Assembly (NCBI GenBank): GCA_937998865.1
Contig: CALLBR010000029.1
Location: forward strand, 1 to 64,000
Direction of reading: 5' to 3'
DNA length: 64,000 bases
Source of the DNA: an uncultured bacterium
Lineage (GTDB): Bacteria > Nitrospirota > Thermodesulfovibrionia > Thermodesulfovibrionales > Thermodesulfovibrionaceae
This document shows positions 238 through 4,217 of the stretch, one piece after another. The notes under the pieces were generated by a model. That model had not been told where the DNA came from. It did not search any database and saw only the letters and a program-made list of their open reading frames with translations. A program made the position numbers and the translations under genes. Each line of letters opens with the position of its first letter. Position 1 is the first letter of the stretch.

Positions 238-267
238 TTGAGATCATCTCTTTAAATGTGTTATACT
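238..267 (+). promoter_or_regulatory. Promoter of the thioredoxin-like gene
   Basis: A -35 box TTGAGA (238-243), an 18-base spacer and a -10 box TATACT (262-267) preceded by TGT. The ATG follows only 8 bases after the -10 box, so transcription would begin within about two bases of the start codon. The GGAG at 268-271 would then not be in the mRNA. Confidence 0.5.
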
Positions 268-275
268 GGAGCTAT

Positions 276-692
276 ATGAAATCTTTGAGATTGCATATTT
301 CTTTAATATTAATTTTATCTCTTATATTTTTATCAATCAATTCCACAGTAGCTGAGAATAAAAAGGATAATAAAAAATCTGTAGTTCTCTATCTATTTTG
401 GAGGGAGGGTTGTCCTTACTGCGAAAAAGAAAAAGAATTTTTATACTCTATAAAGAAAAAGTATCCTAAGCTTGAAATAAGGGATTACGAAGTGATATCA
501 AATCTTGCCTCAAGAGAACTTCTAATGACTATGTCAAAATCTTATGGCATTAATCCATCGGGTGTGCCCGTAACTTTTGTTGGTGACAAGGGCATTGTAG
601 GTTTTGATGAAGAGGTAGCAAGACAAATTGAGGATACTATAAAAGCCTGCCTTAAAAAAGTCTGCCAAGATCCTCTCTTTTATAAAAAATAA
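276..692 (+). CDS. Secreted thioredoxin-fold protein
   Basis: Predicted periplasmic thiol-disulfide protein of 138 residues. An N-terminal hydrophobic segment (about residues 5-25, ending near STVAEN) looks like a signal peptide. It is followed by a thioredoxin-type WREGCPYCEKEK active site (Cys46/Cys49) and a GVPVTF segment supplying the cis-proline. Two further cysteines lie near the C-terminus (KACLKKVC) and could form a second disulfide. An upstream in-frame ATG at 258 exists, but 276 gives a proper signal sequence and sits directly behind the promoter. It precedes a cytochrome c operon, so a role in keeping heme-binding cysteines reduced is possible but unproven. The fold call is firm and the substrate is unknown. 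Confidence 0.8.
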   Translation: MKSLRLHISLILILSLIFLSINSTVAENKKDNKKSVVLYLFWREGCPYCEKEKEFLYSIKKKYPKLEIRDYEVISNLASRELLMTMSKSYGINPSGVPVTFVGDKGIVGFDEEVARQIEDTIKACLKKVCQDPLFYKK

Positions 693-811: not shown

Positions 812-2812
812 ATGAGGGCAATTATTATCGTTGGATTAGTGATTATATGTTTCTTAGTTTCCTACTTGCTTCCTTTAAAAGAAGCAGTATCAGATGATAC
901 CAAGTCCTGTTTGAGATGTCATGGCATCAGTACCCTCAAGAAGACTACAGAGAAAGGAGATTCTATTTCTCTTTTTGTGGATGGAAAAAAATTTGAAAAA
1001 TCAGTTCATGGTGCAATGGATTGCTCATCCTGCCATCCAAATATTACCATGAAAAACCACCCTATACCAAAAAAGATTTACAGTAAAATGGATTATACAA
1101 AAGAATCTTCACCTAATTGCCTTAATTGTCATCCAAAAGATACTCTAATGAAAAATAAAGCCCATGGAGAGCTTGTTAAAAGTGGACAAATCTATTGTTC
1201 TCAATGTCATGGTAGTCATTATATTGGTTCCATAAAGGATTGGAAAAATAAAGTGAGCTTCAATGAATACTGCATGAGTTGCCATAAATTTGATTTAAGC
1301 AAAACCCTGCCAAGTAAGGAAAAGGTAAGCCTCATGGTAAATGAAGAGGAAATAAAAAAATCAGTACATGGTAAATTTCAGTGTATTGTCTGCCATGATG
1401 ATTTTTCTAAGGTAAAACACCCCATCTATAATTTTAAAGACAAAAGGCAATATAGGGCTGAAATGACAAGAATTTGTACTAAGTGTCACACTGATGAAAT
1501 GCTCAGGAAAAACCCTGCTCATTATGCTCTAACTAAAACAGCCTCTTGTATTGAATGTCATGGTGCTCATGGAGTCAAATCTGCTAAGGTTGTAAAGGCT
1601 CTTCCTGAAAATCAATACTGCCTGAGTTGTCACAGTAGACCCCTCACCATGAAAATGCAAAATGGAGAGAGTCTTTCAGTTCAGGTAAAAGAAAATGAAA
1701 TATTAAATTCCGCCCATAAAAAATTAAAATGCACTGAATGTCACAAAGAGTTCTCCCCGACACAGCATCCAGTAAGGAACTTTGCTTCTATTAATGATTA
1801 TAGAGCTAAAGCAAAGGATATTTGTAATAATTGCCATCAGGATGCAGTAAAAAAATATGACATAAGCATTCATGCAGAGGCTTATAAAAAAGGAAATCCT
1901 CAATCACCAGAGTGCATTAAATGTCATGATTATCATAAAGTGACATATATAAGTAAAGACAAACAAGCAGGTTCTGAGTTATGTATCAGCTGTCATACTG
2001 AATCTGGAAAAGCCTTTAAAGGAAGTGTCCATCAACAGGCAGTATTGCAGGGTAAACAAAATGCTCCAAATTGTGTCTCTTGTCACAATTCTCATGATGT
2101 TTTACCTACAAACATTGCAAAATTGGAAGATTCTTGTATTAAGTGTCATAAAGATTCAAAAGTAACTCATTCAAAATGGCTCTGGAATCCTCCTATAAGA
2201 CTGACTTCCTTTGTAGATATTCATTTCAAGTCTGCATCTTGTGCTTCTTGCCATACAAACACTGATAAAGCTGTTTTCTTAACTTTGGTAGAGAAATCCA
2301 AAGGTAAACCAATAAAAGAAGAAGATATAGCAAAATACTTAAATGTGGATGTGAAAGAGGTAAGAAATAAGATCGATCAAAATAAAGATGGAAAAGTTCA
2401 GCAAGAAGAATTATGGCAATTTATGAATTTAATGAAAGATAGAGCCAAAGCTACTCTTTCTGGAAGGATAGACGTTTTAAATGCTAATGATGCTCATAAA
2501 ATAGAATCCAAGGATAAAGCAATAAAAGACTGTGCTTTTTGTCACAATCCTAATTCATCCTTTAAAGCAAAAATTGAGATTAATAAAGAGGGAGCAAAAC
2601 CTGTCAAATTAGAAACAGACGGTAAAGTTTTAAATTCTGCTTATGCCATACCAAATATCAGTGATTTTTATGTACTGAGTCTTACTAAAATAAAAGTTCT
2701 TGACATACTTTTCATCTTAGCTCTTCTTGGAGGTATTGCTGTCCCAATAGGTCACATTACTTTGAGAATTTTAACAGCACCAATTAGAAGAAAGAGAAGG
2801 GAGGGGAAATAA
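812..2812 (+). CDS. Membrane-anchored 17-heme cytochrome c with an EF-hand
   Basis: Large multiheme cytochrome c (666 aa), expected to carry electrons in the periplasm. An N-terminal hydrophobic segment (about 3-22) exports it, and a second one near 628-655 probably anchors it in the membrane. I count 17 CxxCH heme sites, starting at residues 33, 71, 103, 129, 154, 191, 222, 246, 270, 307, 338, 368, 391, 421, 442, 477 and 573. They fall into about four repeats of four hemes, each with a SVHG/SAH, a HPI/HPV and a GAH/GSH-type element supplying extra histidines. Between hemes 16 and 17 is a perfect EF-hand loop (DQNKDGKVQQEE, residues 522-533), implying calcium binding. It overlaps the b-type cytochrome by one base (TAATG). 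No exact family name is recognised. Confidence 0.9.
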   Translation: MRAIIIVGLVIICFLVSYLLPLKEAVSDDTKSCLRCHGISTLKKTTEKGDSISLFVDGKKFEKSVHGAMDCSSCHPNITMKNHPIPKKIYSKMDYTKESSPNCLNCHPKDTLMKNKAHGELVKSGQIYCSQCHGSHYIGSIKDWKNKVSFNEYCMSCHKFDLSKTLPSKEKVSLMVNEEEIKKSVHGKFQCIVCHDDFSKVKHPIYNFKDKRQYRAEMTRICTKCHTDEMLRKNPAHYALTKTASCIECHGAHGVKSAKVVKALPENQYCLSCHSRPLTMKMQNGESLSVQVKENEILNSAHKKLKCTECHKEFSPTQHPVRNFASINDYRAKAKDICNNCHQDAVKKYDISIHAEAYKKGNPQSPECIKCHDYHKVTYISKDKQAGSELCISCHTESGKAFKGSVHQQAVLQGKQNAPNCVSCHNSHDVLPTNIAKLEDSCIKCHKDSKVTHSKWLWNPPIRLTSFVDIHFKSASCASCHTNTDKAVFLTLVEKSKGKPIKEEDIAKYLNVDVKEVRNKIDQNKDGKVQQEELWQFMNLMKDRAKATLSGRIDVLNANDAHKIESKDKAIKDCAFCHNPNSSFKAKIEINKEGAKPVKLETDGKVLNSAYAIPNISDFYVLSLTKIKVLDILFILALLGGIAVPIGHITLRILTAPIRRKRREGK

Positions 2813-3444
2813 TGAAAAAAATCTATCTTCATCCATTACCAGTAAGAATATGGCATTGGATAAATGCATTAGGTTTTATCATTCTCATCTTAACAGGTGC
2901 TCAAATAAGATTTGTTGATTCTATGGGTTTAATGAGTTTTGAAACAGCTGTGCAAATTCACAGTTGGCTTGGCTTCATTCTTTTAATTAATTATTTCATT
3001 TGGCTTCTTTACTATGTGCTTTCGGGAAAATTATTTAGAATCTATATCCCTCCTTTTTGGAGACCCGTTGAATTCATTAAAAAATCAATTAAACAGGCAA
3101 AGTATTACGGTTATGGTATATTGATAGGTGATAAAAATCCTCATCATCCTTCACCAGAAAACAAATTTAATCCAATGCAACAAATATCCTATTTAATGAT
3201 AATGGGAGTTCTTATACCCTTACAAATCATTACGGGTTTAATTCTTTGGGATCCTCAACTTTTCTCCTCATTGAGCTCTTTAATAGGTGGAATTCAAATA
3301 GCTTCACTTATTCATACGGTACTATGGATTTTCTTCAGTGCCTTTATAATAGTTCATTTCTATCTTGCAACTCTTGGACATACTCCAATGGCTCATATAA
3401 AGGCCATGTTCACAGGTTATGAAGAAGAGCATGAAGAGCATTGA
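2812..3444 (+). CDS. Membrane b-type cytochrome (cytochrome b561 / hydrogenase b-subunit type)
   Basis: Integral membrane diheme cytochrome b of 210 residues with about four transmembrane helices and a short His/Glu-rich tail. The opening HPLPVRIWHWINALGF with two histidines, a further IHSW in the second helix and histidines in the last helices (SLIHTV, IVHFY) match heme-b subunits of Ni/Fe hydrogenases and formate dehydrogenases. Such subunits exchange electrons with menaquinone. Its start codon overlaps the stop of the 17-heme cytochrome, so the two are almost certainly co-translated as one quinone-linked complex. The direction of electron flow cannot be read from the sequence. Confidence 0.85.
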   Translation: MKKIYLHPLPVRIWHWINALGFIILILTGAQIRFVDSMGLMSFETAVQIHSWLGFILLINYFIWLLYYVLSGKLFRIYIPPFWRPVEFIKKSIKQAKYYGYGILIGDKNPHHPSPENKFNPMQQISYLMIMGVLIPLQIITGLILWDPQLFSSLSSLIGGIQIASLIHTVLWIFFSAFIIVHFYLATLGHTPMAHIKAMFTGYEEEHEEH

Positions 3445-3475
3445 TAAATAGAGAAATGAAAGGAGGTGAAAAAAG

Positions 3476-3847
3476 GTGAGATCCAAAAAAGGTTTAATAG
3501 TATTAATTACTGTCTGTTTCTTATTTGCTATATCTCTTGCTGGAGCACAAATGCAGGATGTTTACAAGCTTCATTGGGAAGGTGCAAAGTTTCCACCTGT
3601 TGATTTTACACACAAAAAACATATTGAAGATTACAAAATAGACTGTAAACTTTGCCATCACAAAGATCCAAATCCAGCTCAAGGAGTACAGAAATGCATT
3701 TCCTGCCATGACATATCTGAAGCCAAAGGCAATGCTCCGAAGGCTATGGATGCTTATCACAAAAACTGTATTGATTGCCATAAAGCGGAAAACGAGATTG
3801 GCAAAGCAGCACCAACAAAATGTAATGACTGCCATAAAAGAGCCTAA
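3476..3847 (+). CDS. Periplasmic tetraheme cytochrome c (class III / c3 type)
   Basis: Small soluble cytochrome of 123 residues with a signal peptide (about 1-24, ending AGAQ) and four CxxCH sites (CKLCH, CISCH, CIDCH, CNDCH). A FTHKKH element and additional histidines give bis-His ligation, as in c3/c7 cytochromes, which shuttle electrons in the periplasm. The start is GTG, chosen because a strong AGGAGG lies 9 bases upstream (3461-3466) and the next in-frame starts would cut into the signal peptide. As third gene of the operon it is the likely soluble partner of the membrane complex. Confidence 0.88.
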   Translation: MRSKKGLIVLITVCFLFAISLAGAQMQDVYKLHWEGAKFPPVDFTHKKHIEDYKIDCKLCHHKDPNPAQGVQKCISCHDISEAKGNAPKAMDAYHKNCIDCHKAENEIGKAAPTKCNDCHKRA

Positions 3848-3860
3848 TTTAAATCATTTA

Positions 3861-3888
3861 GGGGGCTAAAAGAAGCCCCCTTATTATT
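3861..3888 (+). terminator. Rho-independent terminator of the cytochrome operon
   Basis: A 7-bp stem GGGGGCT (3861-3867) / AGCCCCC (3874-3880) with a 6-base loop, followed by TTATTATT. It sits 14 bases after the stop of the tetraheme cytochrome. Confidence 0.85.
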
Positions 3889-3899
3889 GAGAATTTCAA

Positions 3900-4217
3900 A
3901 TGGAAAAATTTAAATTTTTTATTGGTAAAAAAATTAAGATAGATACCTTTAAAGATCCAAAAAATCTAAAAAAATACTCTTTAATCTGTAAAAACTTGCC
4001 TGAACAGCTTGAAGAATTTGAGGAATTTGAATTTTTTATTGATGATACTGTTATGTGTCTTGCGGTGCTTGAAGGAAAAATTAAGAGAATAATGTTTGTA
4101 AAGGTTGATAAAGAAAATTCTGACATATGCTATCCTCTAACAAAGGAGGAGTTGAGTATTTTTTTAGAAAAAAATGAAGATAATCTTTTGGAATATTTGA
4201 AAAGCATCACAGAATAG
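3900..4217 (+). CDS. Hypothetical acidic protein
   Basis: A 105-residue protein of unrecognised family. It is rich in Phe, Glu and Lys, has no signal peptide or membrane segment, and has two cysteines (SLICKN, TVMCLA). The C-terminal half reads as a helix-strand-helix ending in LTKEELSIFLEKNEDNLLEY. It stands alone between the cytochrome terminator and tRNA-Ser, with only a weak ribosome site. Length, clean frame and protein-like composition support it as a gene. No function can be assigned. Confidence 0.55.
   Translation: MEKFKFFIGKKIKIDTFKDPKNLKKYSLICKNLPEQLEEFEEFEFFIDDTVMCLAVLEGKIKRIMFVKVDKENSDICYPLTKEELSIFLEKNEDNLLEYLKSITE

Follow-up and report, generated by a model that had tools for sequence, protein, structure and literature searches.

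The operon at the start of this stretch of DNA is, by homology, of the CbcBA type, an enlarged version of a complex known from Geobacter, and its new part is an N-terminal extension. We analysed a window of 64,000 nucleotides lying at a contig end (G000:C29:1-64000), in which consecutive genes encode a 17-heme membrane-anchored cytochrome c, a cytochrome b and a tetraheme cytochrome c3 (Table 1). The source organism is probably a member or near relative of Thermodesulfovibrio, a genus of heat-loving sulfate reducers. The operon's probable products are a quinone:cytochrome c oxidoreductase of the CbcBA type, in which the heme wire is enlarged, and a soluble carrier; the complex would act reversibly between menaquinone and c3.

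Table 1. Features of the operon and its surroundings (positions in the window).
Feature	Position	Strand	Details
Exported thioredoxin/glutaredoxin-like protein, CPYC motif	258..692	+	Pfam Glutaredoxin E=5e-6
17-heme membrane-anchored cytochrome c, CbcA-type with N-terminal extension	812..2812	+	666 aa
Heme module M1	908..1210	+	residues 33-133; true repeat by sequence comparison, M1-M2 z=12
Heme module M2	1271..1561	+	residues 154-250; apparently gained by duplication
Heme module M3	1619..1927	+	residues 270-372; true repeat by sequence comparison, M2-M3 z=10
CbcA-like core	1976..2809	+	residues 389-666: hemes 13-17, EF-hand, membrane helix
EF-hand loop DQNKDGKVQQEE	2375..2410	+	residues 522-533
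C-terminal helix from residue 628	2693..2809	+	membrane anchor, positively charged tail, His648 (2753-2755)
CbcB-type cytochrome b, diheme type	2812..3444	+	predicted ligands His15, His50, His168, His182
Tetraheme class III cytochrome c (c3), soluble carrier	3476..3847	+	4 CxxCH
Terminator-like hairpin ending the operon	3860..3881	+	consensus scan only

The 17 CxxCH motifs of the first product lie at residues 33, 71, 103, 129, 154, 191, 222, 246, 270, 307, 338, 368, 391, 421, 442, 477 and 574. All of them were noted in a sequence-only reading of this DNA, together with the EF-hand loop, the C-terminal membrane helix and the order of the three genes; the open reading frames and Pfam bear this out, including the single base, 2812, that the first two genes have in common. 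The observation is not a product of chance: genome-wide, 221 CxxCH-type DNA matches were counted against 45 for a reversed control pattern, and all relatives examined have retained the pairing of cytochrome c and cytochrome b genes. An AlphaFold2 model of the 17-heme protein (pTM 0.52) places a long helix from residue 628 onward, and a Foldseek search with this model returned nothing better than E=0.35. Residues 482-666, which hold the EF-hand, last heme and helix of CbcA-type proteins, match no Pfam or NCBIfam model above its cut-off. A fragment at a contig end in the assembly of another species (G009:C10:3-584) codes for residues 473-666 with 100% protein identity, while the full copy in that assembly is 93% identical to the window protein; the fragment probably stems from a second strain within that assembly.

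The link to CbcBA rests on several comparisons. A phmmer search with the window protein alone matched PDB entry 28pb ('Cytochrome c', 278 residues) over hemes 13-17, EF-hand included, at E=1.5e-14; this is the independent figure, since the value of 8.7e-85 obtained with the A3 profile is partly by construction, A3 including Geobacter-type CbcA. A genome scan with the 28pb fragment led to five Geobacter/Desulfuromonadaceae loci, on which all our heme counts outside Nitrospirota are based and whose cbcA genes are 58-77% identical to 28pb. At each locus the first gene product has 7 hemes, an EF-hand loop and a helix at its C-terminus; a cytochrome b gene comes second, and at three of the five loci a 12-heme cytochrome is encoded third. 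Because heme motifs inflate alignment scores, the core was compared with CbcA using 300 shuffles in which every CxxCH was kept in place. The core, from heme 13 to the C-terminus, scored 238-260, and the means of the shuffles were 57-62 (z=16-20). The tail past heme 16, which holds a single heme, aligned with CbcA at 99.6% hhalign probability (E=1.8e-24). For the cytochrome b, identity to CbcB proteins is 42-44% (E about 1e-55 to 1e-63).

The operon thus has a close match to a characterised complex. The sequence-only reading, which recognised no named complex of this composition and listed such a match as a refutation, is not supported on this point. A CbcA-homologous anchored multiheme cytochrome c and a CbcB homologue encoded by the next gene are both present; the seven heme c of CbcA are replaced by 17 here and by 13 in other Nitrospirota, and for this reason we regard the protein as an enlarged homologue and not as CbcA itself. 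According to two published accounts, the Geobacter complex comprises a 7-heme CbcA, a b-type CbcB and an 11-heme CbcC (PMC10989804), cbcC is also called omcQ, and deletion of cbcBA lowers Fe(III) reduction (PMC11434368).

This homology, together with the conserved gene pair, supports the proposal of the sequence-only reading that a membrane complex connects a quinone-type cytochrome b with periplasmic carriers. We infer, rather than observe, complex formation, c3 docking, direction and energy coupling. The cytochrome b would exchange electrons with menaquinone, and the CbcA domain, held beside it by the C-terminal helix, would relay them to or from the b hemes. The three four-heme modules would carry a chain of bis-histidine hemes out into the periplasm, where c3 would dock. 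A periplasmic hydrogenase or formate dehydrogenase would reduce c3, which would pass its electrons to menaquinone and on to the complexes of sulfate reduction; the opposite course, in which quinol supplies electrons to Fe(III) or a partner, would be possible. By analogy with FdhN, the quinone site would lie on the cytoplasmic side, near His182, a conserved NPHH loop and perhaps His648. With the site placed there, flow from c3 to quinone would build membrane potential.

The potential partners were inventoried by family searches of the genome. PF02085 detects one standalone c3, the operon's own, and one 16-heme HmcA-like protein. The periplasmic [NiFe] hydrogenase is soluble; its small subunit carries a Tat-type signal, and a maturation protease is encoded next to the enzyme, beside which no cytochrome b or membrane subunit was found. 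No protein in the genome reaches the QrcA cut-off, the best scoring 18.9 of 180 bits. According to Frank et al. (PMC5165239), strain N1 has the same hydrogenase layout, and its periplasmic formate dehydrogenase, too, is without a membrane subunit; Murali et al. proposed that CbcBA works in reverse, reducing quinone, in the Qrc-less Seep-SRB2 (PMC10553843). The single c3 detected, the enzymes without membrane subunits, the missing QrcA match and the proposal of a reversed CbcBA favour flow from c3 to menaquinone, which is probably the usual direction in this sulfate reducer. The Hmc complex is present as well and could take c3 electrons instead; c3 followed by Hmc is what Frank et al. propose for strain N1, in passages that do not mention this operon (PMC5165239).

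The same complex might instead run mainly outward, as a menaquinol oxidase from which electrons would leave along the 17-heme chain and by way of c3 for Fe(III) or for a syntrophic partner. Geobacter CbcBA works in this way near -0.2 V, and Thermodesulfovibrio species reduce Fe(III), although slowly in strain N1 (PMC5165239). However, our search of the genome for a porin of the MtrB/PioB type found none, the Paired-CxxCH model matches only the 17-heme protein, and the cytochrome c/b complex is conserved in 16/16 genomes of a genus that is described there as sulfate-reducing and as using H2 and formate (PMC5165239). We consider mainly outward flow less likely, and the extracellular partners suggested earlier have so far no support from the genome, as searched for MtrB/PioB porins.

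In Thermodesulfovibrio-type sulfate reducers, the enlarged CbcBA and its dedicated c3 might replace Qrc as an unrecognised entry of periplasmic H2 and formate electrons into menaquinone, energy being conserved as they cross to a quinone site on the cytoplasmic side, and the longer wire being adapted to that direction; we put this wider proposal forward tentatively. The c3 gene lies within the operon only in this genus, and c3 is therefore not an obligate partner across the family of complexes. In the genomes checked of a neighbouring family (f10), PF02085 matches lie only in proteins of 500-670 residues, so other members must use other carriers.

The cytochrome b, of 210 residues, matches Pfam Ni_hydr_CYTB (PF01292, E=1e-31), and its four predicted histidine ligands are invariant in 52/52 proteins. 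With its structural model, Foldseek found FdhN gamma (probability 1.00, TM 0.61) and the Hyd-1 cytochrome b as nearest; a PDB profile search using the cytochrome b alignment gave no match. One could suppose from the Ni_hydr_CYTB match and from a hit to the PhsC-type NCBIfam model NF011582 (141 bits) that this subunit belongs to a hydrogenase, formate dehydrogenase or thiosulfate reductase, the multiheme protein being an accessory. This is highly improbable: all the curated cut-offs were missed (141 of 204, 79 of 121.5 and 64 of 115.85 bits), no catalytic subunit of any of the three enzymes adjoins the gene, its pair is always the multiheme gene, and it matches CbcB at the E values given above. 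We accordingly rejected these three assignments on the missed cut-offs and the lack of a partner enzyme. In f10 (L041-L046), the cytochrome b has a C-terminal tail rich in His (HGHSHDEGH or the like) that is missing in this genus and perhaps binds metal.

The product of the third gene matches Cytochrom_CIII (PF02085) at E=9e-15, with 55.4 bits against a cut-off of 22.9; it was rejected as TmcA, reaching 64.6 of 114 bits with NF045722. Upstream, the thioredoxin-like gene ends 119 bases before the 17-heme gene and holds the same place in 9/9 genus loci compared, and its product possibly helps in cytochrome or heme maturation. This gene was not seen in f10, whose loci have a rhomboid-like gene and groEL nearby. 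Beyond the terminator-like hairpin, an open reading frame at 3900-4217 (105 aa) has no family match above cut-off and recurs in 6/9 genus loci.

The histidines of the 17-heme protein point to electron transfer and not to catalysis. Outside the CxxCH motifs it has 18, each conserved in the 12/12 aligned 17-heme proteins. Seventeen of them could act as distal ligands, one per heme, while the eighteenth, His648, is present in 52/52 proteins, CbcA included. Since the conserved distal histidines match the hemes in number, the protein looks, from its sequence, like an electron wire. That it is a catalytic enzyme of the nitrite, sulfur or metal reductase type, as weak profile matches to NrfB-, NrfH- and C554-type families might hint, is very doubtful and was rejected, because every motif is a plain CxxCH, no heme is left open by the count of distal histidines and no catalytic family reaches its cut-off.

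How the wire became longer can be followed among relatives. We collected 47 cytochrome c/b pairs from Nitrospirota, and in 47/47 the cytochrome b gene directly follows the multiheme gene; the multiheme protein has 13 hemes in 32 of them and 17 in the other 15, and no other count occurs. The 17-heme proteins belong to this genus and to five members of f10. In a tree of the CbcA core and cytochrome b, rooted on the Geobacter-type proteins (a root on a long branch, to be read with caution), the 17-heme state would most simply have arisen once, in the ancestor that the genus has in common with most of f10, later than the split of the 13-heme L128 (supports 100, 96 and 100). A single loss would have followed, in a subclade of f10 with the 17-heme L105 as its sister (support 99).

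Module comparisons, again with heme motifs held in place during shuffling, indicate which parts were copied. M1 and M2 are 36% identical (z=12), M2 and M3 35% (z=10), and M1 and M3 about 30% (z=5). The sequence-only reading had seen four consecutive four-heme modules, and for the first three this stands. The fourth is no copy of M1 (z=-0.5) or M2 (z=0.8) and was rejected as such, its z=4 with M3 coming from one common diheme pair; on this evidence only three modules are true repeats, and hemes 13-16 are part of the CbcA domain. M2 is chimeric by halves: in L123, identity of the first half of M2 is 56% with the first half of M3 and 40% with that of M1, while the second half of M2 is 54% identical to the second half of M1 and 38% to that of M3. 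The pattern recurs in L124, L105, L042 and the window; among diverged members, L033, L039 and L041 have a second half in which it is weak or reversed. An M3-like first half and an M1-like second half indicate an out-of-register tandem duplication, from the second half of M1 to the first half of M3, in a 13-heme ancestor. In the secondary 13-heme clade, comparison of L043 with L105 assigns the first half to that of M1 (56 vs 38%) and the second half to that of M2 (55 vs 41%), as expected from a later deletion running from the second half of M1 to the first half of M2. The tree and the half-module comparison thus support one tandem duplication, from 13 to 17 hemes, and one later deletion, and with the repeats themselves they uphold the earlier suggestion of a heme wire grown by module duplication.

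A second kind of 13-heme protein, of about 480-500 residues, has a C-terminal helix and modules akin to M1-M3 and is without the CbcA domain (L144:5532-7775, minus strand; L145:4009-6229, plus; L146:4094-5581, plus). It is common in the order and was not found in this genus. In L144 and L145 its gene is followed by one for a different cytochrome b-like membrane protein (about 250-280 aa) and by a sensor kinase/response regulator pair.

The EF-hand is the sole DxDxDG-type loop of the 17-heme protein. It has the canonical 12-residue form, with D1, N3, D5 and E12, between helices modelled at residues 514-521 and 531-545; Pfam EF-hand_5 scores it at E=3.5e-4 and 20.3 bits, under its cut-off of 25.9. 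Positions 1, 3, 5 and 12 are canonical in 15/15 17-heme proteins, 5/5 Geobacter-type CbcA proteins and 5/32 13-heme proteins. In the remaining 27/32 the loop is non-canonical, so not every member of the family requires calcium, although L044 and L110 differ only by D in place of E12, or nearly so. This distribution makes the EF-hand a feature that these proteins share with Geobacter-type CbcA and that is dispensable in some lineages. For a lone EF-hand beside the last heme, with predicted calcium binding, stabilisation of the fold seems more likely than calcium sensing. We found no publication that brings together a multiheme cytochrome, an EF-hand, quinol and the inner membrane.

These results place a quinone:cytochrome c oxidoreductase of metal-reducing Geobacter in a sulfate-reducing Nitrospirota lineage, for which the published model sends c3 electrons to Hmc (PMC5165239). 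They give the sole small c3 detected in the genome a testable role, and the series of 7, 13 and 17 hemes, with one gain and one loss, offers a natural experiment on extra hemes in a biological wire. We believe that the system is worth following for its clean history of duplication and deletion, its link to that c3 and its occurrence where no QrcA was found.

Among known systems, QrcABCD resembles this complex in its proposed role of passing electrons from c3 to menaquinone; it has no cytochrome b and contains Fe-S and molybdopterin-like subunits, and membership was rejected because the QrcA model was not matched above its cut-off. HmcA of the Hmc complex is likewise a large multiheme cytochrome and an expected acceptor of c3 electrons; the 17-heme protein was rejected as HmcA, reaching 28.7 of 400 bits with NF045713. 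FdhN gamma (1kqf_C) is similar in its cytochrome b fold and in its histidine spacing, whereas its partner is an Fe-S/molybdenum enzyme. The CbcL/MtrH/MtoC family also pairs a multiheme c with a diheme b as a quinone oxidoreductase, and its heme motifs, from 3 to 23, are a precedent for variable heme number (PMC6295460). In CbcL, however, the c and b domains are fused, whereas here they are encoded by two separate genes, on which ground CbcL was rejected; the window cytochrome b showed no significant match to the fused CbcL-like L057 (E=0.02). The 28pb protein is like the window protein in hemes 13-17 and the EF-hand and is without the extra modules. CbcBA of the Geobacter Cbc5 cluster (cbcEDCBA) has 7 hemes in its CbcA against 17 in the window or 13 in other Nitrospirota, and an 11- or 12-heme cytochrome in place of the tetraheme c3; cbcD and cbcE were not seen in the window operon. 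The two systems are alike in the core with its EF-hand, the last heme behind the EF-hand, the His-bearing C-terminal helix, the CbcB-type cytochrome b encoded next and, in the three Geobacter-type loci mentioned above, a soluble multiheme cytochrome after it.
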